DNA of 64,000 bases, from contig JAEUUJ010000015.1 of the NCBI GenBank assembly GCA_016786495.1, positions 1-64,000 on the forward strand, given 5' to 3'. Below are positions 348 through 43,176 of this stretch, in pieces; the stretch's first letter is position 1; the number at the start of each line of letters is the position of its first letter. The stretch comes from Cyclobacteriaceae bacterium (lineage in GTDB: Bacteria; Bacteroidota; Bacteroidia; Cytophagales; Cyclobacteriaceae). The notes beneath the pieces were generated by a model, which was not told the origin of the DNA, searched no databases, and saw nothing but the letters and a program-made list of their open reading frames with translations. Both the position numbers and the translations under genes were made by a program.

Positions 348-1403
348 ATGACCTACATTATCAGCGGAATCCAGCAGGTTGGAATCGGGGTTACCGATGC
401 GGAAAACGCCTGGACCTGGTACCGGAAGCATTTCGATATGGACGTGCCCGTTTTCAAGGACGCGGCCGAAGCCAAACTGATGACCCGGTATACTTCCGGG
501 AAAGTAGAGAGTCGGTACGCCATTCTCGCCCTCAACATGAGCGGGGGCGGTGGTTTTGAGATCTGGCAATACACCAGCAAGGTGCCGTTAAAAGCAGAGT
601 TCGATATTGTATTGGGCGACACCGGCATCTACGCGACAAAAATCAAATCCCGCGCGGTAGAAGAGAAGTACCATGAACTTAAAGCGAAAGGTGCCAACAT
701 CGTTAGCCCGCTCGCGCAAGCACCCGATGGCCGCAAGCATTTTTTCTTAACCGATCCGTATGGCAATCTGTTCGAGATTGTAGAAAGTACCAGTTGGTTT
801 AAGCTTGGTAAAAGCAAGAATGGCGGAGTCTCCGGTTGTGTGATGGGTGTTTCTGACATGGACAAAGCTATTCCGCTGTATCGCGATGTGCTGGGTTACA
901 CCGTTGTGTACGATACAACGGAAGTGTTCGCGGATTTCAAAGGCCTGCCGGGCGGTGAAGATAAATACAGACGCGTTCTCCTTCGCGGAACCAAAAGCGG
1001 GAAGGGAAACTTCGGTCGCCTGCTCGGAGCAACCGAAATTGAACTTGTTCAGGTTTTTGGACGCACGCCACGAAAAATATTTGGCCACCGTAACTGGGGT
1101 GATCTTGGGTTCATTCACCTGTGTTTCGATGTTAACGGAATGAAAGAACTCGCCAGGAAAGCTGAAGCTTCAGGTTTTCCGTTTACCGTTGATAGCAGCA
1201 CCTCGTTCGATATGGGAAAAGCCGCAGGGCAATTCACGTACATCGAAGACCCGGACGGGACATTGATTGAATTTGTTGAAACACACAAGATTCCAATCTT
1301 CGAGAAAATCGGCTGGTACCTGAGTCTCAAGAAACGCAACCCCGAGAAGCCACTTCCAAACTGGATGGTTGGTATGCTTTCGCTGAACCGGGTGAAGGAC
1401 TAA
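348..1403 (+). CDS. VOC (glyoxalase/dioxygenase superfamily) protein with two VOC modules
   Basis: 351 residues. The first half opens with ISGIQQVGIGVTDAENAWTW and ends with DPYGNLFEIVE; the second has VMGVSDMDKAIPLYRDVLGY and ends with DPDGTLIEFVE. These are the two metal-ligand-bearing VOC modules, as in two-domain extradiol dioxygenase or glyoxalase I relatives. VOC proteins bind a divalent metal through His/Glu residues and act on small organic substrates; the substrate cannot be read here. The C-terminal 40 residues are basic and lie outside the fold. It is a single gene, divergent from rpsF and convergent with the next gene. No perfect promoter was seen in 160-347. No signal peptide, so probably cytoplasmic. 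Confidence 0.75.
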   Translation: MTYIISGIQQVGIGVTDAENAWTWYRKHFDMDVPVFKDAAEAKLMTRYTSGKVESRYAILALNMSGGGGFEIWQYTSKVPLKAEFDIVLGDTGIYATKIKSRAVEEKYHELKAKGANIVSPLAQAPDGRKHFFLTDPYGNLFEIVESTSWFKLGKSKNGGVSGCVMGVSDMDKAIPLYRDVLGYTVVYDTTEVFADFKGLPGGEDKYRRVLLRGTKSGKGNFGRLLGATEIELVQVFGRTPRKIFGHRNWGDLGFIHLCFDVNGMKELARKAEASGFPFTVDSSTSFDMGKAAGQFTYIEDPDGTLIEFVETHKIPIFEKIGWYLSLKKRNPEKPLPNWMVGMLSLNRVKD

Positions 1404-1445
1404 GTCCGTTATCCCGGGAAACTGCCGGGCACTATCAACAGATAA

Positions 1446-2372
1446 CTACTTCACGTCAAACTTTCCGGAGCCGATCTTGTAGTCTTCGCAATAGATCTCA
1501 AGCACGTATGATCCTGAGGCATACTCAGAACCTTTTTCATACAAATAGGTGAGCTTTTGCTTCGTATTATCAAACAGGATTTCCTGCGATGCGGTATAAA
1601 ATTCTTCTTTGCCGTTGTAGATAAACGTGCCCGACCCGCGCGACACGTCAAACAGCACCTGGTTGTTCTGATCGATGATGCGGATCATGATCTTTTTCCC
1701 TTCGATCGGAGCAACGTTGTTTTCTGCCAGGTTGAATTCCACTTTAAGCTTCTCGAGCTGACGGTTTTTAAAAGGTGATTCGCGTTCCTTGCCTTTGTCG
1801 TTCACCGCTTTAATAGAGATGTTCTCCGCCTTAAGTTGCGATGCGATGCTCACTTTTGTAGCGAGTTCATCTTTGGTTTGAGCCAGGCGGTTAATGGAGT
1901 CACCGAGCTGATTTTTTTGTGTTTTCAGTGTGGTATTCTCAGAAAGCAGTTCTTTATTAACCGACTTTAACCGATCAAGTTCTTCGTCTTTCAGTTTTAA
2001 TAGTTGCTCATAGCCTTCCACGCGGTCTTTCAGTTCTTTAATCACCTGACCGTTGGCTCTGCGCGAACGTTTCAATTCTGATTCAATTTCTGCTTTAGCC
2101 TTCTGGAGTTCGGAAACATCTCCGCCCAACTTTTGGATCTCGGTGATTTTCTGGTCGAGTTCCACCTTAATGCTATTCAGTTGCTGAAGTGTGGAGGCAA
2201 GTTCCTGTTCGGTGGAGGCGATGGTGGTTTCTGCGGCCTGTTTGTCTTTATGATCCAGATACATCTTCACGAACTGAACCAGGATCACGATCGACAGAAT
2301 CGTAATAATGATAACGCTCTTATTATTCTTTTTGGGAGCCGGGGCGGCCGTGGGGGTTGTAGTTTCGCTCAT
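1446..2372 (-). CDS. Membrane-anchored coiled-coil protein of unknown function
   Basis: 308 residues. A short cytoplasmic, Ala/Pro/Thr-rich N-terminus is followed by one transmembrane helix (about residues 19-38, VIIITILSIVILVQFVKMYL). A long heptad-rich coiled coil then runs to about residue 185 (many E/K/L/Q). The C-terminal region of about 110 residues looks beta-rich (for example VLFDVSRGSGTFIYNGKEEF). I recognise no named family. The architecture suggests a protein reaching into the periplasm or lying along the inner membrane, possibly oligomeric. Its own promoter sits at 2392-2422, inside the end of the upstream methyltransferase gene, so it can be expressed independently. Confidence 0.7.
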   Translation of the reverse strand: MSETTTPTAAPAPKKNNKSVIIITILSIVILVQFVKMYLDHKDKQAAETTIASTEQELASTLQQLNSIKVELDQKITEIQKLGGDVSELQKAKAEIESELKRSRRANGQVIKELKDRVEGYEQLLKLKDEELDRLKSVNKELLSENTTLKTQKNQLGDSINRLAQTKDELATKVSIASQLKAENISIKAVNDKGKERESPFKNRQLEKLKVEFNLAENNVAPIEGKKIMIRIIDQNNQVLFDVSRGSGTFIYNGKEEFYTASQEILFDNTKQKLTYLYEKGSEYASGSYVLEIYCEDYKIGSGKFDVK

Positions 2373-2391
2373 ACCAGGTTTGCTAAAAATT

Positions 2392-2422
2392 CAAAATTAC
2401 GGGTTCCGGCTGCCTAATGCAA
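2392..2422 (-). promoter_or_regulatory. Promoter for the coiled-coil membrane protein
   Basis: Minus-strand TTG (2422-2420), 20-base spacer, TAATTTTG (2399-2392) fits TTG-N17-23-TAnnTTTG. The predicted start, near 2387, is about 15 bases before the ATG at 2372. The -33 box lies inside the last codons of the methyltransferase gene. Confidence 0.6.
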
Positions 2423-3202
2423 CACGTTAAACTGCAACACAACGTGTTGTTTGGTAAGTGATGGATCAAAAAATAAAATCCCGCACCGGTAAAGATCAAG
2501 GCTGGTATGGACCAGGCTGTGTGCACAGATTTCTTTCCAGGCACTGTCCATGCCTGGACTGGCGTGAATGTCGTCAATCACCATGATGCTTTTGTGGTGC
2601 ACCTTCATCAGTAATTCGTCAAAGTACTTTTTCGTGGCTTCGTATTGGTGATTGGCATCGATAAATGCAAAATCAATTTTGGGCAACCGGGAAAGCGTGG
2701 AGTAAAGTGTACTGTCGATATTACCCTTGATCAATTCAATATTTTTAGCGGAAGCAAAACGAAATGTGTCTTCCGCTACTTCCGCAATTGTGGCGGACCC
2801 TTCAAAAGTATACACGCGCGCGTTTTCGGTTCGTGCCAGATAAAGAGTGTTCAGTCCGAATGAGGTGCCGAGCTCGACAATTGTTTTCGCTTTGGTGTAT
2901 TCAGCCAGGCGGTTGTAAAGCGATGAAAACCGGATGTTGCTCAGACTTGTTTCCGCGATATCGCTGATTTTTCGTTTACCGTCCGAGAAGTGCTTTGATC
3001 CGGAGCCCAGTTCCTGCACCTCTATTTCGCGGTGTGTTTTTAACAGGTCTATACGAAGTTTTTCAATTTCCAGATCAGGCGTTGGTTCAACGTTGATCGT
3101 TTTGGTATACAAGTCGTACAAAAAAGGCGAGTGCAGCGAATGCTCGTTGACTGAATCAAGCCAGTAGTTGAGATACGTCTTTACCTGGAAGAAATCGGCC
3201 AC
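2414..3202 (-). CDS. Class I SAM-dependent methyltransferase
   Basis: 262 residues. The Rossmann core shows motif I as TIVELGTSFGLNTLYLA and the acidic strand-2 end as VYTFEGS. A later strand reads IDFAFIDANHQYEATKKYF, as in the O-methyltransferase/class I MTase group. The N-terminus contains NEHSLHSPFLYDLYTK, a stretch I associate with Bacteroidota members of this family. The substrate cannot be inferred. The gene is read leftward toward the coiled-coil gene and separated from apaG by 76 AT-rich bases with no clear terminator. Confidence 0.75.
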   Translation of the reverse strand: MADFFQVKTYLNYWLDSVNEHSLHSPFLYDLYTKTINVEPTPDLEIEKLRIDLLKTHREIEVQELGSGSKHFSDGKRKISDIAETSLSNIRFSSLYNRLAEYTKAKTIVELGTSFGLNTLYLARTENARVYTFEGSATIAEVAEDTFRFASAKNIELIKGNIDSTLYSTLSRLPKIDFAFIDANHQYEATKKYFDELLMKVHHKSIMVIDDIHASPGMDSAWKEICAHSLVHTSLDLYRCGILFFDPSLTKQHVVLQFNVLH

Positions 3203-35987: not shown

Positions 35988-36088
35988 AAAAAGTGGCAAA
36001 CCGAACATCGCACCGCTACAACCGCCTACCCTTGCTACCTTCCGGTCCTGGGGGAATTCAGCAGGAGCTGGTCGTGCCGGTTTACCGG
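35988..36088 (-). ncRNA. ffs: Small bacterial signal recognition particle RNA (4.5S type)
   Basis: On the minus strand the apical domain reads CCAGGACCGGAAGGTAGCAA (within 36032-36053), with the GGAA tetraloop and the AGCA internal loop that bind Ffh. The ends pair: GGTAAACCGG (near 36086-36077) with TCGGTTTGCC (36004-35995). Total length is about 100 nt, as for small SRP RNAs. A promoter at 36092-36121 predicts a start at about 36088. A run of seven T after GCCAC (35990-35984) should end transcription. Confidence 0.92.
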
Positions 36089-36091
36089 GTG

Positions 36092-36121
36092 CAAATATAG
36101 CAGGCAGGGCAGAATTATCAA
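36092..36121 (-). promoter_or_regulatory. Promoter of the SRP RNA gene
   Basis: Minus-strand TTG (36121-36119), 19-base spacer, TATATTTG (36099-36092): a perfect Bacteroidota promoter, placed so that the start coincides with the 5' end of the folded SRP RNA. Confidence 0.75.
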
Positions 36122-36127
36122 GAATGT

Positions 36128-36367
36128 TTAAGCCAGCCCGGAGAGATACAGGTTGAACTCCAGCGGGCTGCATACTTCAAAGGCATCCGCTTTCAGATCT
36201 TCGAAAATACCTTCATCAAATTGCAGGTCACGCACTTGCGGCTGCTGTCCGGGTTCGATGGTGATTTCCGTGCCGGTATAATGGATGGGGTTCACCTTAA
36301 CCAGAATAAGCAAATCATCGTGGTTCTTTTTGAAGTATTGGTGAACGATATTTTGGGTTTTAGCCAT
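36128..36367 (-). CDS. Small conserved-looking protein of unknown function
   Basis: 79 residues from the ATG at 36367 (MAKTQNIVHQYFKKNHDDLL). It is mixed alpha/beta, acidic in the second half (DLQFDEGIFEDLKADAFEVC), with no signal peptide or membrane segment. I recognise no family. The frame is open for three more codons upstream, but these would overlap the -7 box at 36374-36381. That box lies only six bases before the ATG, so the mRNA is probably leaderless or nearly so. It sits between SRP RNA and bTHX and is divergent from the latter. Confidence 0.6.
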   Translation of the reverse strand: MAKTQNIVHQYFKKNHDDLLILVKVNPIHYTGTEITIEPGQQPQVRDLQFDEGIFEDLKADAFEVCSPLEFNLYLSGLA

Positions 36368-36373
36368 TGGTCT

Positions 36374-36381
36374 CAAAAATA
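36374..36381 (-). promoter_or_regulatory. -7 box immediately before the small unknown gene
   Basis: Minus-strand TATTTTTG matches TAnnTTTG. It ends six bases before the ATG at 36367. No clear -33 TTG. Confidence 0.45.
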
Positions 36382-36418
36382 CAGAAAGCCGGTTGTACGA
36401 AAAATGCCCTGCGATATT

Positions 36419-36448
36419 TTGTGATCCCGAGCGGGTTTGCTATACTTG
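36419..36448 (+). promoter_or_regulatory. Promoter for bTHX (and possibly the trp operon)
   Basis: TTG (36419-36421), 19-base spacer and TATACTTG (36441-36448), one mismatch to TAnnTTTG. The start is predicted near 36453. No other promoter is visible before the trp leader peptide. Confidence 0.6.
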
Positions 36449-36470
36449 CCTCAATATTTCTTAAAAACCC

Positions 36471-36650
36471 ATGGGAAGAGGAGATAAAAAAAGCAAAAAA
36501 GGTAAGCGTACAATCGGCTCATTCGGCGTTAGCCGCAGCCGTGTGAAAATTAAGGCAAGGCTGAAACGCGTAGCTTCTAAAAAGAAGGCGACCGTAGCTG
36601 CAGGAGCTGCAAAACCGAAGCGCGCACCCCGTAAAAAAGCTGAAGCATAA
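36471..36650 (+). CDS. 30S ribosomal protein bTHX
   Basis: 59 residues, MGRGDKKSKKGKRTIGSFGV and a very basic, Ala/Lys/Arg-rich tail. The MGRGDKK-x-KKGK-x(2)-IGS-(F/Y)-GV pattern is characteristic of the bTHX (Thx) family, a small peptide lodged in the head of the 30S subunit in Thermus and found across Bacteroidota. Here the tail is longer than the ~25-residue Thermus peptide. It has its own promoter and ends only six bases before the trp leader-peptide start. The trp attenuator terminator is therefore also the first terminator downstream of this gene. Confidence 0.9.
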   Translation: MGRGDKKSKKGKRTIGSFGVSRSRVKIKARLKRVASKKKATVAAGAAKPKRAPRKKAEA

Positions 36651-36656
36651 GTTGAC

Positions 36657-36713
36657 ATGATCAGAGTTTCAAACATAGCATGGTGGTGGCATATATCTGA
36701 AACAGATATGTGA
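36657..36713 (+). CDS. trpL: trp operon leader peptide with three tandem Trp codons
   Basis: The 18-codon reading frame gives MIRVSNIAWWWHISETDM, with TGG TGG TGG at 36681-36689. Tryptophan is rare, so three in a row just before a mutually exclusive hairpin set and a complete trp operon is strong evidence for a regulatory leader peptide. It lies six bases after the bTHX stop. When charged tRNA-Trp is scarce, a ribosome would stall at these codons and cover the first strand of the 1:2 hairpin. Confidence 0.92.
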   Translation: MIRVSNIAWWWHISETDM

Positions 36714-36776
36714 ACAGCCTTGTTATAACTATACATTAGCCAGAGGCCCGCTGTTCACAGCGGGCTTCTTGTTTTT
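36690..36776 (+). promoter_or_regulatory. Transcription attenuator of the trp operon
   Basis: Three competing structures can be drawn. 1:2 hairpin: 36690-36699 with 36703-36712 (10 bp, one G-U). 2:3 antiterminator: 36709-36718 (TGTGAACAGC) with 36750-36759 (GCTGTTCACA), 10 bp perfect. 3:4 terminator: 36742-36753 with 36758-36769, then a T-rich tail. Segment 1 begins right after the Trp codons, so ribosome stalling would free segment 2 and favour read-through. This is the classical ribosome-mediated attenuation layout. Confidence 0.9.
36742..36776 (+). terminator. Attenuator terminator before trpE
   Basis: A 12-bp stem with core GCCCGCTG/CAGCGGGC, loop TTCA, followed by TGTTTTT. Its 5' arm overlaps the antiterminator strand. 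It also ends bTHX transcripts that do not continue into trpE. Confidence 0.9.
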
Positions 36777-36797
36777 ATACCCTTTGACGAAATTGAA

Positions 36798-38198
36798 ATG
36801 AACTACAAAATTCAAACACGATCGAAAAAGCTGCTGTCCGACACGCTCACCCCGGTAAACATCTACCTGAAATTGCGCGATGTTTTTGCCGGAAGCATCC
36901 TGCTGGAGAGCTCTGACTACCACGGCCAGGAGAACAGCTTGTCGATGATCTGCTGTGAACCGATCGCCACCGTTAAGGTGCAGCGAAACACAGCGGAACT
37001 TCGCTTTCCCGATGGAAAGATGGTTCGCGAAGAGCTTTCAGGTGCAAGCCTGATTCAAACGCTTGATGCATTCAGGGCTTCATTCGAAACAGAAAGTAAT
37101 CCGGGCAAGAATGGTTTTTCGGGCAGCGGTTTGTTCGGCTACATGGCGTACGATACCGTTAAGTTTTTTGAGGACGTCAATATTCAATCGCAGGAAGACG
37201 GCATTCCGGAAATGCAGTATGCACTTTACCGCTACGTGATCGTGGTAAACCACTTCACCAATGAACTTACGTTGTTTGAAAACACGGTAGCGGGAACTTC
37301 CGAAAGTGGTATCCACCGAATCGAGCAACTGATTTTCAGCAACCGATTCTCCACGTATGCTTTTCAATCGGTAAACGGAGAGACTTCCAATGTAACCGAT
37401 GCTGAGTACATCGACATGGTTAAACAGGGGATACGTCATTGCCAGCGCGGTGATGTATTTCAGATTGTGCTTTCCAGAAGGTTCTCCAGTCAGTTTAAGG
37501 GTGATGAGTTTAACGTGTATCGTGCGTTGCGGTCGATCAACCCTTCGCCATACCTGTTCTATTTTGATTACGGCAGCTTTAAACTGTTCGGATCATCACC
37601 CGAAGCCCAGTTACAGGTTCGCGGATCGCAGGCCAGTATTTACCCGATCGCGGGAACCTTCAGAAGAACGGGTAACGATCAGGAGGATGCTGAACTGGCC
37701 AGCAAGCTTGCGGCCGATGAAAAAGAAAATGCCGAGCACATCATGCTGGTGGATCTGGCTCGTAACGACATGAGCCGCCATGCCGAGCATGTAACGGTGG
37801 AGGTGTTTAAGGAAATCCAGTACTACTCGCACGTGATTCACCTCGTGTCGAAAGTTACCGGCAAACTCCCGGAAGGCACCTCTGCTGTGAAGATTGCTTC
37901 CGATACATTTCCTGCCGGAACACTGTCGGGTGCACCCAAGCATATGGCGATGACTTTGATCAACCAACTCGAAAACGTGAACCGCAGCTTTTACGGAGGC
38001 GCAATCGGTTATCTGGGATTTAATAACGACTTTAACCATGCCATCATGATCCGAACGTTCCTCAGCCGGAACAATCAACTATTTTACCAGGCAGGAGCAG
38101 GCGTTGTTTCCAAATCCGATCCGCAAAGCGAACTGCAGGAAGTAAATAACAAGCTTGGCGCGCTGCGCAAAGCAATTTTAATGGCTCAAACTATCTGA
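36798..38198 (+). CDS. trpE: Anthranilate synthase component I
   Basis: 466 residues. The N-terminal domain has GSILLESSDYHGQENSLS, containing the LLES element that in characterised TrpE forms the tryptophan feedback site. The C-terminal chorismate-binding domain has LFGSSPEAQLQV, YPIAGTFRRTG, DEKENAEHIMLVDLARNDM, FPAGTLSGAPKHMAM and GGAIGYLGFN, with the tail QAGAGVVSKSDPQSELQEV. The enzyme converts chorismate to anthranilate using ammonia from TrpG. Control is likely double: attenuation of the mRNA and feedback of the protein. First structural gene of trpEGDCFBA; one base separates it from trpG. Confidence 0.96.
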   Translation: MNYKIQTRSKKLLSDTLTPVNIYLKLRDVFAGSILLESSDYHGQENSLSMICCEPIATVKVQRNTAELRFPDGKMVREELSGASLIQTLDAFRASFETESNPGKNGFSGSGLFGYMAYDTVKFFEDVNIQSQEDGIPEMQYALYRYVIVVNHFTNELTLFENTVAGTSESGIHRIEQLIFSNRFSTYAFQSVNGETSNVTDAEYIDMVKQGIRHCQRGDVFQIVLSRRFSSQFKGDEFNVYRALRSINPSPYLFYFDYGSFKLFGSSPEAQLQVRGSQASIYPIAGTFRRTGNDQEDAELASKLAADEKENAEHIMLVDLARNDMSRHAEHVTVEVFKEIQYYSHVIHLVSKVTGKLPEGTSAVKIASDTFPAGTLSGAPKHMAMTLINQLENVNRSFYGGAIGYLGFNNDFNHAIMIRTFLSRNNQLFYQAGAGVVSKSDPQSELQEVNNKLGALRKAILMAQTI

Positions 38199-38199
38199 C

Positions 38200-38766
38200 A
38201 TGAAGATTTTAGTACTCGATAACTACGATTCGTTTACCTACAACCTGGTTCATATTATCCGGGAACGGAAGTATGACTATGAAGTGCATCGGAACAACAA
38301 GATTGCACTGGAGGAAGTAAAACGGTTTGATAAAATTCTTCTTTCACCCGGCCCGGGAATTCCGGATGAAGCCGGCATTATGAAGGATTTGATTAAAACA
38401 TATGGCGCTTCAAAAAGTATTCTGGGTGTTTGTCTCGGCCATCAGGGGATCGGGGAAGTTTATGGTGCTTCCTTGTTCAATATTCCGAAAGTGCTTCATG
38501 GAGTTACATCCATCGCGCATGTCACCGATCATGACGAAAAGCTCTTCAAGGGTATTCCGGAAGATTTCCAGGTAACGCATTATCATTCCTGGGCCATAAA
38601 AGCCGATACGATCAAGTCGCCCCTGAAAATTACGGCTACGAATGAAGAGGGGCTGGTAATGGCGGTGCGGCATGAAAAGTTTGATGTGTGTGGAGTACAA
38701 TTCCATCCGGAGTCGATCATGACTCCCGAAGGGCCGAAGATTATTGAAAATTGGTTGAAGGGCTAG
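38200..38766 (+). CDS. trpG: Anthranilate synthase component II (glutamine amidotransferase)
   Basis: 188 residues. It opens MKILVLDNYDSFTYNLVHII. The oxyanion/PGPG region is LLSPGPGIPDEAG, the nucleophile is Cys78 in LGVCLGHQGIGE, and the catalytic His169 and Glu171 are in VQFHPESIMTPEG. It supplies ammonia from glutamine to TrpE. In many bacteria the same subunit also serves aminodeoxychorismate synthase (PabA role); no separate pabA is visible here, so a shared role is possible. One base after trpE. Confidence 0.95.
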   Translation: MKILVLDNYDSFTYNLVHIIRERKYDYEVHRNNKIALEEVKRFDKILLSPGPGIPDEAGIMKDLIKTYGASKSILGVCLGHQGIGEVYGASLFNIPKVLHGVTSIAHVTDHDEKLFKGIPEDFQVTHYHSWAIKADTIKSPLKITATNEEGLVMAVRHEKFDVCGVQFHPESIMTPEGPKIIENWLKG

Positions 38767-38800
38767 TGTAAGGGGACGAACAATCAAGATTAAACAGCGT

Positions 38801-39787
38801 ATGAAAACAGTATTGAATGAATTAATTGATCACCAGTCGCTCACGAAGGAGGAGGCGCGGCAGGTTCTGATTGAACTTACATCGGGCAAGTACAACCCGA
38901 GCCAGACGGCTTCTTTCATAACCGTGTATATGATGCGCAACATCACGGTCGATGAGCTTCAGGGTTTTCGTGATGCGATGCTGGAGCTTTGTATTCCGGC
39001 CCGGTTCGATCAGCCGGTGATGGACGTGTGCGGAACCGGTGGTGACGGAAAGAACACGTTTAACATCTCAACGCTGTCTTCCTTTGTGGTGGCAGCAGCC
39101 GGACAGCCGGTTGCCAAGCACGGTAACTATGGGGTTTCGTCAGCCTGTGGGTCATCGAACGTGCTGGAATATTTCGGGTATACGTTTACAAACAACATCG
39201 ATGAACTGAAGCGCTCGCTCGACCGTGCCAACATTTGCTTCATGCATGCACCGTTGTTTCATCCTGCCTTGAAAAATGTTGCACCCATTCGTAAAGAACT
39301 TGGGGTTAAAACTTTTTTCAACATGCTTGGGCCGATGGTGAACCCGGCATTTCCGTCACGGCAACTGGTAGGCGTGTTCAGTCTCGAGCTCGCCAGAAAA
39401 TACGGATACCTGTATCAGCAGTCCGACAAGCAATTTGTTGTCCTTCATTCCCTTGATGGATATGATGAGATTTCGCTTACCGGGGCTTTCAAGTATTTTT
39501 ATAATAACGGTGAGCAACTGGCTGATGCTTCGGATTTAGGATTGCCGAAACTCACGTATGATCAGATTGGCGGAGGTGACTCTGTCGCGGATTCAGCAAA
39601 GATTTTCATGGATGTGCTGGAAGGGAAGGGCAGTACGGCACAAAACGCAGCGGTGATTGCCAATGCCGGCATGGCTTTATATTGTGCCGATCAAAAAGCA
39701 GGGTTGCTGAATGCGGTAGCCAAAGCCCGGGAGTCGCTCGAGTCCGGCAAAGCGCTTGAGTCATTCAAAAAACTGATTAATCGCTGA
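38801..39787 (+). CDS. trpD: Anthranilate phosphoribosyltransferase
   Basis: 328 residues. The PRPP-binding glycine loop is DVCGTGGDGKNTFNIST. KHGNYGVSSACGSSNVLEYF is the KHGN(R/Y) element, and the anthranilate-binding region is FMHAPLFHPALKNVAPIRKE followed by RTFFN-like KTFFNMLGPMVNPA. The enzyme transfers phosphoribose to anthranilate, the second step of tryptophan synthesis. It is separate from trpG, unlike the enteric fusion. Its stop overlaps the trpC start by one base (TGATG). Confidence 0.96.
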   Translation: MKTVLNELIDHQSLTKEEARQVLIELTSGKYNPSQTASFITVYMMRNITVDELQGFRDAMLELCIPARFDQPVMDVCGTGGDGKNTFNISTLSSFVVAAAGQPVAKHGNYGVSSACGSSNVLEYFGYTFTNNIDELKRSLDRANICFMHAPLFHPALKNVAPIRKELGVKTFFNMLGPMVNPAFPSRQLVGVFSLELARKYGYLYQQSDKQFVVLHSLDGYDEISLTGAFKYFYNNGEQLADASDLGLPKLTYDQIGGGDSVADSAKIFMDVLEGKGSTAQNAAVIANAGMALYCADQKAGLLNAVAKARESLESGKALESFKKLINR

Positions 39788-40584
39788 TGAATATTCTCGA
39801 TACCATCGTTGCGCATAAGCGGAAAGAAGTTGCGGCCAGAATGGAGTCTGCTCCAACTTCAATGCTGGAGAAGCGACCGTTATTTCAGCAGCCGGTCATC
39901 TCGTTGAAAAAGCGCTTGCTGGAAGAAAATTCCTCCGGCATCATTGCCGAGTTTAAAAGACAGTCGCCTTCCAAAGGCGTGATCAATTCAACTGCATTGG
40001 CGGACGCAACCACGCTTCAGTATGTTCAGGCGGGTGCCTCGGGATTATCGGTGTTGACCGATCGTCAGTTCTTTGGCGGAAGTGAGGAAGATTTTCTTTC
40101 GGCAAGACGCGCAAATGGGAATACACCGATGCTGCGAAAGGATTTCGTAGTGAGCGAATATCAGATTGTTGAGGCCAGGTCGATCGGTGCCGATGTGATC
40201 CTTTTAATTGCAGCTTGTCTTGATCCGGCTACGGTTACGGCACTTTCAGCATTTGCCCACAGGTTGGGCATGGAGGTATTGCTGGAGGTTCACAATGAAG
40301 AGGAGTTGTTGCAAAACCTTCGTTCGGACGCTGATATGGTTGGAGTGAATAACCGGAACCTGAAAACGTTTGAGGTGGATATTAATCTCTCCCGGAAATT
40401 ATTCCCGCTGATCCCGAAAGACGCAGTGAAGGTTTCTGAAAGCGGGATTGAAAAGGCTGAGACGATCCGGGAACTCCGCGAAACAGGATTTAGAGGGTTT
40501 TTAATGGGCCAGCGGTTCATGGAACAATCCAACCCCGGTCAGGCATGTCAGGCATTCATCGACACGTTACGCAACGGAAAATGA
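39787..40584 (+). CDS. trpC: Indole-3-glycerol phosphate synthase
   Basis: 265 residues, (beta/alpha)8 barrel. It opens MNILDTIVAHKRKEVAARME. The catalytic strand GIIAEFKRQSPSKGVI has the essential Glu and Lys, LRKDFVVSEYQIVEARSIGA a second Lys, and VGVNNRNLKTFEVD the Asn. The phosphate site is VSESGIEKAETIRELRETGF then GFLMGQRFM. It closes the indole ring from carboxyphenylamino-deoxyribulose phosphate. It is a single-function protein, with trpF a separate gene overlapping by four bases. Confidence 0.96.
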   Translation: MNILDTIVAHKRKEVAARMESAPTSMLEKRPLFQQPVISLKKRLLEENSSGIIAEFKRQSPSKGVINSTALADATTLQYVQAGASGLSVLTDRQFFGGSEEDFLSARRANGNTPMLRKDFVVSEYQIVEARSIGADVILLIAACLDPATVTALSAFAHRLGMEVLLEVHNEEELLQNLRSDADMVGVNNRNLKTFEVDINLSRKLFPLIPKDAVKVSESGIEKAETIRELRETGFRGFLMGQRFMEQSNPGQACQAFIDTLRNGK

Positions 40585-41204
40585 ATGTAAAGCTTAAAAT
40601 ATGCGGCATGCGTGACGCTGCCAACATTGCTGATGTGGCGGCATTGCAACCGGATTACCTGGGCTTTATCTTTTATGAGAAGTCACCCCGATTTGTCGGA
40701 GCTGATTTTAAAATGCCTGATTTACCGAATGGGGTGAAGCGGGTAGGTGTTTTTGTGAATGAAAAGACAGAGAATATTTTTCAGCGCATAGAACGATACA
40801 AACTCGACTTCGTGCAATTGCACGGGAACGAAACAGTGCGTGAATGTGACGTGCTGCATACAAAAGGGGTCAGGGTTATCAAAGCCTTCTCAGTCGATGA
40901 TGGTTTTGATTTTGACGTAACAAAGTCTTTCGAAACATATGTTCATTATTTTTTGTTCGATACGAAAGGAAAGTACTTTGGGGGTAATGCAAAAACGTTC
41001 GACTGGAGTTTACTGCGGAGATACAACCAGGCGGTTCCCTTCTTTTTGAGTGGCGGTATTTCACCTGAGAATATTTCCGCGGTGAGAGAGCTTCAGGGTT
41101 TGAATATTCATGCGATCGATGTGAACAGCGGGGTGGAAGACCACCCTGCGTTTAAGAATGTTAGTAAAGTTAAAGCGATTCAAGAGGTCATAAACGCATT
41201 ATAA
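40581..41204 (+). CDS. trpF: Phosphoribosylanthranilate isomerase
   Basis: 207 residues from the ATG at 40581, whose bases overlap the trpC stop (ATGA). It opens [20 protein letters not shown] with catalytic Cys in [22 protein letters not shown] and VQLHGNE are family motifs, and the general acid Asp lies in [21 protein letters not shown]. The phosphate-binding end is [11 protein letters not shown] and [19 protein letters not shown]. It performs the Amadori rearrangement between trpD and trpC. A longer reading from 40545 runs inside trpC and is rejected. Confidence 0.95.
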
Positions 41205-41206
41205 AT

Positions 41207-42388
41207 ATGAAGTACACGGTTAATGAGAAAGGTTTTTATGGGAAGTTTGGCGGAGCGTACATCCCTGAAATGCTCTACCCGAACGTGGAGGAGCTGCGAA
41301 CGAATTATCTATCGATCATCTACGAGCCGGAATTTCAACTGGAGTTCTCGAAGCTCTTGAAAGACTACGTGGGTCGGCCAACACCACTCTACCTGGCGCA
41401 TCGGTTGTCCGAGAAATACAATACCCGGATTTATCTGAAGCGTGAAGATTTATGTCATACCGGTGCGCATAAAATCAATAACACCATCGGGCAGATTCTG
41501 CTGGCAAAACGCCTGGGCAAGAATAAGATTATTGCAGAAACCGGGGCAGGTCAACATGGTGTTGCCACGGCAACGGTGTGCGCGCTCATGGGAATGGAGT
41601 GCACGGTTTACATGGGGCAACTCGATATTGAACGACAGCGGCCGAATGTTGAGCGCATGCGCATTCTCGGGGCTCAGGTGGTTCCTGCCCGCAGCGGCAA
41701 CATGACCCTGAAAGACGCGACCAATGAAGCGATGCGTCACTGGATCAACAACCCTTCCGACACGCATTATATTATCGGTTCGGTGGTGGGTCCGCATCCC
41801 TATCCCGATATGGTTACTCGCTTCCAGTCGGTTATTAGCGAAGAGATTAAGGCTCAGTTGCAGCAAGCGGAGGGTAATCCGTATCCCGATCATGTGATTG
41901 CCTGTGTGGGCGGTGGCAGCAATGCTGCAGGCGCGTTTTATCACTTCCTGGAAGATGAACACGTGAACCTGGTAGGGGCAGAGGCTGCTGGCAAAGGCGT
42001 TAACTCGGGCGAATCAGCCGCTACTACAGCACTTGGGAAAACAGGTGTGCTGCACGGAAGTAAAACGTTACTCATGCAAACGGAAGACGGGCAGGTTGTT
42101 GAGCCTTACTCAATTTCAGCCGGGCTGGATTATCCCGGCATCGGGCCGTTGCACGCACATTTATTCGACACGCAACGGGTTCAGTTTCTCAGCGCAACCG
42201 ATGATGAAGCCATGGAGGCCGGCATCGAATTGAGTCGCACGGAAGGAATTATTCCGGCCATTGAATCCGCGCATGCGATAGCTGTATTGAATCAACTAAA
42301 ACCTGATCCGGACGATGTGGTAGTGATTAACTTGTCTGGCAGAGGCGATAAAGATTTGGAAACCTATATCCGCTGGGGTAAATATTAA
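41207..42388 (+). CDS. trpB: Tryptophan synthase beta chain
   Basis: 393 residues. It opens with [20 protein letters not shown]. The PLP lysine is Lys89 in [36 protein letters not shown] and the phosphate-binding [14 protein letters not shown] are intact, and the C-terminus has [13 protein letters not shown] and LSGRGDKDL. The chain condenses indole with serine. It is the TrpB1 type that pairs with TrpA; two bases after trpF. Confidence 0.97.
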
Positions 42389-42405
42389 CCGTTGAATTAT
42401 TGACT

Positions 42406-43176
42406 ATGAGCAGACTCAAGAAACTGTTTCAGGAGAAGAAGCAAAATGTGTTGTCGGTTTTCTACACAGCCGGGTTTCCAAAACGCGATGATACCGTCTC
42501 GATTGCCCGCCATCTTCAGGCAGCGGGTGCTGACATCATTGAAATCGGAATTCCATTTTCTGATCCGGTAGCCGATGGTCCGACCATTCAGGCCAGCAAT
42601 AAAATTGCGCTTGATAACGGGATGACTGTGAAACTGCTGCTGGAGCAGGTAAAAGAAATCCGGAAGAGCGTAACCATGCCGGTCGTGTTAATGGGATATC
42701 TCAACCCGGTATTGCAGTATGGATTTGAGAAGTTTTGTAACGATGCAGCCGCGGCCGGTGTTGACGGATTGATTTTGCCTGATATGCCGCTGGACGAGTT
42801 TAACGAACACCGCGCCCTCACCACTTCGCTGGGTCTTGATGTGATTTTCCTGATTTCACCGACCACTTCACCGGAACGAATTGCGGTGATTGACGGGTTG
42901 TCGTCCGGATTTGTGTACGCTGTTTCGTCTTCCAGTACTACGGGTGCAAAGAAGGGCTTTACGTCAGAGCAGGAGGAGTATTTTAGGAAACTCAAAAATG
43001 CAGGACTAAAGAATCCATTCCTGATTGGTTTTGGCATTTCGGACCATCAAACCTTTAGCAAAGCCAGTCAATTCAGCTCGGGAGCGATCGTTGGCAGTGC
43101 GTTTATCAATCTTTTGAAAGAATCGAATAACTTTGAAAGCGATATCGCTCAATTTGTTCGAAGTCTGAAAGCGTAA
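42406..43176 (+). CDS. trpA: Tryptophan synthase alpha chain
   Basis: 256 residues from the ATG at 42406; a TTG six bases earlier is less likely. Catalytic Glu46 and Asp57 lie in ADIIEIGIPFSDPVADGPTI. Loop 6 is YAVSSSSTTGAKKGF, and the phosphate site is LIGFGISDHQTF and GAIVGSAFI. It cleaves indoleglycerol phosphate and passes indole to TrpB through the tunnel. It is the last gene of the operon; no strong terminator was seen in the 31 bases before the next gene. Confidence 0.96.
   Translation: MSRLKKLFQEKKQNVLSVFYTAGFPKRDDTVSIARHLQAAGADIIEIGIPFSDPVADGPTIQASNKIALDNGMTVKLLLEQVKEIRKSVTMPVVLMGYLNPVLQYGFEKFCNDAAAAGVDGLILPDMPLDEFNEHRALTTSLGLDVIFLISPTTSPERIAVIDGLSSGFVYAVSSSSTTGAKKGFTSEQEEYFRKLKNAGLKNPFLIGFGISDHQTFSKASQFSSGAIVGSAFINLLKESNNFESDIAQFVRSLKA

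Follow-up and report, generated by a model that had tools for sequence, protein, structure and literature searches.

The window, i.e. the whole stretch of 64,000 nucleotides of Cyclobacteriaceae DNA analysed here, carries on its + strand the tryptophan biosynthesis genes trpE, trpG, trpD, trpC, trpF, trpB and trpA, in this order (36798..43176, assigned through Pfam matches), and upstream of them a short leader peptide ORF, trpL, with the sequence MIRVSNIAWWWHISETDM. The ORF (36657..36713) is composed of 18 codons, from the ATG at 36657 to the TGA at 36711-36713, and includes three consecutive Trp codons, TGG TGG TGG (36681..36689), which form the predicted stall site. Directly after them begins hairpin 1:2 (36690..36712), recognised from folding and alignment, in which 36690-36699 pairs with 36703-36712 through 10 pairs, one of them G-U. 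Pairing energy and pair counts define the two arms of an antiterminator, region 2 (36709..36718) and region 3 (36750..36759), which match in 10 of 10 Watson-Crick pairs; the region 3 arm overlaps the 5' arm, the loop and the beginning of the 3' arm of the terminator. The latter, hairpin 3:4 (36742..36769; 36742-36753 with 36758-36769), was identified by terminator scan, energy and alignment; it has 12 pairs, including one G-U, at about -22 kcal/mol, and is followed by the T-rich tail TGTTTTTA (36770..36777). An initial annotation made from the DNA letters had described the 18-codon leader with its TGG triplets, a 10-bp hairpin right after the Trp codons, an exact 10-bp antiterminator, a 12-bp terminator with a T-tail and the downstream order trpEGDCFBA; the four leader elements are present at the bases it gave, and the gene order was borne out by the Pfam matches.

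Just outside the coordinates of that annotation lies the most unusual feature of the locus, namely the joining of the trp leader to thx, the gene of the 30S ribosomal protein bTHX. This ORF of 59 amino acids (36471..36650, + strand), the first gene of the proposed unit, matches TIGR04560 with an E-value of 1.6e-9 and 37.6 bits, against a cut-off of 26, and its stop is separated from the leader ATG by a gap of just 6 nt (36651..36656). As it is the single thx match in its own genome at E 0.1 or better, a transcript ending at the terminator would be the sole source of thx. A predicted promoter of the whole unit (36418..36448), read from the sequence and from the comparison of related loci, consists of TTTG (36418-36421), 19 nt and TATACTTG (36441-36448), and it is near the Bacteroidota consensus of -33 TTTG and -7 TANNTTTG given in parts of PMC6847099 and PMC7366714. 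Taking the last G of the box as position -5, transcription is predicted to start at about 36453. On the opposite strand a 79-codon ORF begins at 36367 and a small SRP RNA (RF04183) lies beside thx (35991-36093, minus strand), so that thx would be the first gene in its unit. The same RNA was also found upstream of trpE, on the minus strand, in L003, L004, L011, L014, L018 and L026.

The folding energy of the RNA from 36657 to 36776 is -46.3 kcal/mol, compared with -26.9 +/- 3.5 in 200 dinucleotide shuffles (z -5.6), none of which folded equally well. Pairing of region 2 with region 3 reaches -16.8 kcal/mol, a value matched by 0 of 500 mononucleotide shuffles of region 2; in four other loci the same test returned 0, 1, 1 and 9 of 500 equally good. 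A scan of the + strand between 36300 and 37100 found no terminator-like site other than hairpin 3:4. Just past it, the sequence TATACCCTTTG (36777-36787) resembles the -7 box plus one extra base and could conceivably act as a weak promoter of trpE itself.

The behaviour of the three helices was followed in growing RNA under a mask standing for the ribosome, assumed to extend 12 nt beyond the first base of the A-site codon. When the ribosome sits on the Trp codons and the RNA has grown to 36758-36762, helix 2:3 is paired at 0.83-0.92 and 3:4 at 0, compared with 0-0.01 for 2:3 when the ribosome is at the stop codon or there is none. The antiterminator already yields when the RNA is at 36764 (0.36 and 0.18), and once 36769 is reached the terminator dominates in every ribosome state (0.98). 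As at equilibrium the full terminator beats the antiterminator whatever the position of the ribosome, the switch must work kinetically.

The conservation of the leader was assessed on 141 loci in which TrpE could be read over at least 430 aa and was non-identical across residues 11-400. They derive from TrpE homologues on named contigs (80 kept of 508), from further genomes (TrpE match at E 0.001 or better in 57 of 59 relatives, in some of which this is only a distant paralogue) and from genomes of the family (match at E 1e-90 or better in 111 of 118), and are therefore relatives of the TrpE of the window, the nearest named ones belonging to the Cyclobacteriaceae, and no random sample of the phylum. 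Among the 140 loci having at least 100 nt upstream, 133 carry a leader with the run WW before trpE, against 3 in shuffled sequence and 2 on the reverse strand, while WWW was found in 119 and in none of either control. Trp codons are thus kept in the relatives, a point on which the initial annotation had made its reading depend. The eight loci of the 141 which lack a WW leader include L051, with just 32 nt upstream.

Based on the distance between thx and the leader, the 141 loci were divided into 40 coupled, 13 adjacent, 80 apart and the 8 without a WW leader. In the coupled class the distance from thx stop to leader ATG, measurable in 38 of 40 loci, ranges from -4 to +15 nt; in adjacent loci thx lies 39 to 239 nt from the leader, and in apart loci no thx was recognised in the upstream stretch examined, though the genome may still carry one. 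WWW is present in 38 of the 40 coupled and in 70 of the 80 apart loci. In all 40 coupled leaders the Trp run comes after 8-10 codons, and 17 have a second in-frame ATG ahead of it; group B (e.g. L004) has a longer leader, whose stop is beyond region 2. Searches run without a shuffled control found a terminator in 33 of 33 leaders linked to thx and in 92 of 93 non-coupled loci, the one miss being L057, which has a run of N.

Two WWW leaders stand in series in Fulvivirga lutimaris (L019; -268 and -136 from trpE) and in Flammeovirgaceae bacterium UBA1842 (L020; -402 and -177), in both cases with a hairpin and T-tail also after the first one, which may represent stacked attenuators before trpE. 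In Gelidibacter L058 and L063 the leader is found at -564 and -563 from trpE, about 400 nt farther than in other Gelidibacter loci, as if an insertion had occurred between the leader and trpE.

Covariation of the stems in relatives, which the initial annotation had proposed as a check, was evaluated by swapping arms between species in the 33 leaders linked to thx, and cognate pairs proved better for all three helices. The counts consider only species pairs with both arms under 75% identical, and these are not independent of each other; cognate arms were better in 754 of 796 for stem 1:2, in 586 of 598 for 2:3 and in 638 of 698 for 3:4, the last being favoured partly by construction, since each sequence contributed as its 3:4 arms those of its own detected hairpin. 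In the 18-row alignment of the group of the window (A3), 88.3% of the cells of 1:2 are paired, a value reached by 0 of 500 shuffles, and at 6 of the 10 pairs at least one sequence has both bases changed; for 3:4 in the same group, 99.5% of cells are paired and 4 of 12 pairs changed on both sides. Helix 2:3 is nearly invariant in these 18 rows and displays no covariation, and four versions of its core exist across groups: GTGAACAGC/GCTGTTCAC, GAATCGG/CCGATTC, GGATCG/CGATCC and GGTTCGG/CCGAATC. The evidence for the antiterminator consequently rests mainly on the comparison between groups. The 13 distinct rows of groups B-D contain a single double-changed pair in 1:2, a single one in 2:3, which shifts from A-U to G-C in 4 rows, and none in 3:4. 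Since the register of the antiterminator differs between group A and groups B-D, no single covariation count can be given for it, and two alignments together with arm swapping were used instead. The alignments comprise 32 of the 33 linked leaders, L013 being outside A1 and A3 because of one extra base in its terminator; in A2 the terminator is 85.5% paired, the figure being reduced by L088 and L091, in which its end is shifted.

Taken as a whole, these features make attenuation at the trp operon well supported on comparative grounds. The E. coli-like logic attributed to the locus stands as regards the leader, the swapped stems and the terminators, and is less general as regards hairpin 1:2, which is at or below a z of -2 in 33 of the 40 loci of the coupled class versus 12 of 93 outside the coupled clade, where it is weak (median z -0.78). 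Helix 2:3 reaches -2 or lower against shuffled sequence in 65 of 92 loci outside that clade.

The gap between thx and the leader is narrow throughout the coupled class. Its values in the 38 measurable loci include 3 nt (12 loci), -1 (7 loci) and 6 nt (6 loci), and in the seven loci at -1 the thx stop and the leader start overlap by one base (TAATG); if the last in-frame ATG before the Trp run is taken instead, the range becomes -1 to +25 nt. The 17 genomes of the same genus that were searched, that of the window among them, are all coupled, and 8 genera are represented among the 20 coupled loci that bear a genus code.

The motif TAnnTTT[GA] occurs within 30 nt before the leader in 66 of 80 apart, 4 of 13 adjacent and 0 of 40 coupled loci; its rate in shuffled sequence is 10.9% for apart and 0.3% for coupled loci, so that its absence from the latter is no depletion. 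A weaker match, TAAGGTTG, precedes the leader in one of the 40 (L099). Before thx, the box TAT[AT][ACT]TTG, a pattern written after viewing these loci, lies within 45 nt in 38 of 38 readable coupled loci (1.7% in shuffled sequence) and stands 16-25 nt from the thx ATG; TTTG is found 17-23 nt upstream of it in 34 of the 38 (0.26% in shuffled sequence). Adjacent loci have a box before thx in 4 of 13 and before the leader in 4 of 13, few enough to indicate that promoters are poorly recognised there. Where an adjacent or apart locus has more than one WW ORF, the one closest to trpE was scored, and as the earlier leader of L019 and L020 has its own box, the counts of these classes are slightly low.

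A tree of TrpE, comprising 106 of the 141 loci (all coupled and adjacent ones, 43 apart and 10 Flavobacteriia), places the coupled loci in one clade with an SH-aLRT of 100, for which a single change is needed; it was obtained with a quick method and has long branches (L071, L197, L210 and others). In the three nearest neighbours of the clade thx is located 39-57 nt upstream of the leader, and a box precedes the leader in L110 and L198 and not in L201; the fork joining them to the clade has a support of only 84. The simplest history would be that thx and trpL first became neighbours, and that the leader's own promoter was then lost.

We consider it probable that the locus is a ribosome-mediated trp attenuator that functions in the same way as Bacteroid-trp, and which has lost its own promoter and is joined to thx in the coupled clade. 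The promoter boxes are most economically explained if thx and the genes after it are transcribed together from the thx promoter, and thx-trpL-trpEGDCFBA is most likely a single transcription unit. RNA polymerase would start upstream of thx, at about 36453, and transcribe thx and then trpL, while a ribosome finishing thx would restart at the adjoining leader ATG, or make room for another. When Trp-tRNA is scarce, the ribosome would halt on the three Trp codons and cover region 1, so that region 2 would pair with region 3 before region 4 exists, allowing read-through into trpEGDCFBA. When Trp-tRNA is plentiful, the ribosome would get to the leader stop inside region 2, or depart so that 1:2 forms; 3:4 would then form, and transcription would stop after a short thx-trpL RNA. 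Thx would be made in both states, and the terminator would serve thx and trpL alike.

The narrow gap between thx and the leader, with its seven one-base overlaps, suggests that ribosomes are handed over from thx to trpL. In the stricter form of this proposal, trpL would have no start of its own and would depend on ribosomes terminating on thx, making the attenuator part of a ribosomal protein operon, which we hold to be quite possible although somewhat short of probable. If true, thx would put a ribosome directly behind the polymerase, timing the switch with no need of a Shine-Dalgarno site, and the trp genes would depend for their transcription on two supplies, that of ribosomal protein mRNA and that of Trp-tRNA. 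The attenuator and the shared promoter could also be real while the leader initiates alone, the closeness to thx reflecting only the loss of old promoter DNA. Coupled leader starts are A-rich and open, with a mean unpaired probability of 0.59 (0.62 for thx and 0.64 for apart leaders), so independent starting without thx is possible, and similar leaders precede trpE without thx in 80 loci. The gap, however, stays between -4 and +15 nt in 38 loci (8 genera among the 20 with codes), though the sequence of the antiterminator has changed, and we regard independent initiation as a tentative alternative.

Whether the leader could be transcribed from a non-consensus promoter of its own inside thx is a different matter, and this appears unlikely. 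A TTGACA-18-TAGCAT arrangement spans the leader start (36652-36681), as one of 5 sigma-70-like pairs in 36300-37100 on both strands, compared with 1.0 expected in shuffles. These hexamers, however, differ from the consensus of the phylum as reported in part of PMC6847099, and the stretch from the thx start to the leader is free of both TAnnTTTG and TAT[AT][ACT]TTG in each of the 38 readable coupled loci. The candidate at 36652-36681 was rejected because it has no counterpart in L002 and L003, the nearest two relatives, where TTGACA is absent.

That the hairpin, the sole terminator-like site on its strand around the locus, merely ends thx transcription next to a relic Trp-rich ORF is very improbable, given that the Trp run, its position (in 40 of 40 coupled loci) and the antiterminator pairing are all kept, and that trpE is preceded by a Trp-run leader and a terminator also in loci with no thx upstream. 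A regulator other than the translating ribosome, such as a T-box, a TRAP-like protein or a riboswitch, hardly needs to be reckoned with, as what is conserved is an ORF containing Trp codons, and the best of the sub-threshold Rfam matches of the leader is the Trp operon leader, at 33.3 bits. At the gathering threshold no Rfam family was found in the leader, and an E-value search of 36600-36830 up to E 10 returned sub-threshold matches only, of which Trp_leader, Thr_leader and Bacteroid-trp suit the biology and the others look like chance. The T-box model had no match in the window at the gathering threshold and none in 36600-36830 up to E 10.

Attenuation depends on a ribosome being present on the leader in time, though Bacteroidota, according to portions of PMC6847099 and PMC9976891, do not use Shine-Dalgarno pairing. 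The loci compared here offer a possible answer: in 66 of the 80 leaders without thx the ORF starts 4-22 nt after a box, and coupled leaders start at the end of thx. This suggests two routes by which a ribosome is brought to the trp leader, i.e. an ORF near the 5' end of the transcript, or joining to the stop of a ribosomal protein gene. Of the 66 boxed apart loci, examples of which are L032, L057 and L108, 39 have the box at most 13 nt from the ATG, which predicts a 5' UTR under 10 nt, and Trp leaders in boxed apart loci may be near leaderless; in Bacteroides thetaiotaomicron about 3.7% of 5' UTRs are under 10 nt, as stated in a section of PMC7366714. If the joining to thx does supply the ribosome, the clade would constitute a natural test of transcription-translation coupling in the phylum, and amino-acid synthesis would be tied to ribosome production via one promoter.

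Other putative attenuators were encountered in the same genome. On the minus strand of C88 (L217, about 2201-2272), a His leader, MRTTTNIHLHHHHVLHTMRGRFMF, followed by a terminator lies about 80 nt before the ATG of hisG (1258-2118, minus strand) and is likely a second attenuator. On C12 (L218), a leader ORF from 296 with the run SVIIILL is preceded by a TAAATTTG box and followed by a terminator, an ORF (488-1390) which looks like an aminotransferase, and ilvD (1393-3072); it is likely a branched-chain attenuator.

Switches of this kind have precedents in the phylum. Bacteroid-trp was given as a cis-regulatory RNA of Bacteroidetes in 2010 (Weinberg et al., PMC2864571), its structure in Flavobacterium psychrophilum is described in a passage of PMC6414381 as similar to the E. 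coli leader, and excerpts of PMC9723704, on the transcriptome of that species, report strong indications that operons for amino acids are preceded by leader-peptide attenuators. The main text of that paper has no occurrence of trp or tryptophan. Leader-peptide attenuation of trp in Bacteroidota is, as a prediction, already on record. The Bacteroidota setting, to which the initial annotation had drawn attention, is therefore no novelty, and the interest which that annotation attached to coupling in Bacteroidota is weaker than stated, as the kind is known.

The Bacteroid-trp family (RF01692) shares with the locus the phylum, the position before trpE and a leader with UGGUGGUGG, and its model stops at the start of the terminator. 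It differs in that the window reaches 20.2 bits against a cut-off of 49, and is not a member by Rfam's rule. Among the 20 loci scanned (19 relatives and that of the window), the model was at cut-off in seven, six from Flavobacteriia and one from Fulvivirga, at their WWW leaders; none of the six coupled loci scanned reaches it, and none of the seven matching loci is coupled to thx, which in L022 is 63 nt upstream.

The E. coli trp leader (RF00513), like the present one, has Trp codons followed by the alternative stems 1:2, 2:3 and 3:4 and, ahead of trpE, a T-tail; the match of the locus spans the whole model with the 33.3 bits given above, less than the cut-off of 41. In E. coli, this leader contains two Trp codons and is served by a promoter of its own and a Shine-Dalgarno site. 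A further parallel in gene arrangement is offered by rplT-pheM-pheST of E. coli, where a leader-peptide attenuator also lies downstream of a ribosomal protein gene, responding to Phe and not to Trp. In that operon rplT is separated from pheM, and an additional promoter serves pheST. An intergenic pheM-rplT site is mentioned in part of PMC5371410, where pheM is termed an attenuator. The open-licence literature searched yielded no description of a thx-trp fusion and no paper combining 'ribosomal protein THX' with 'Bacteroidetes'. In comparison with these systems, the kind of switch is one already predicted in the phylum, and what appears to be new here is the close joining of the trp leader to thx.
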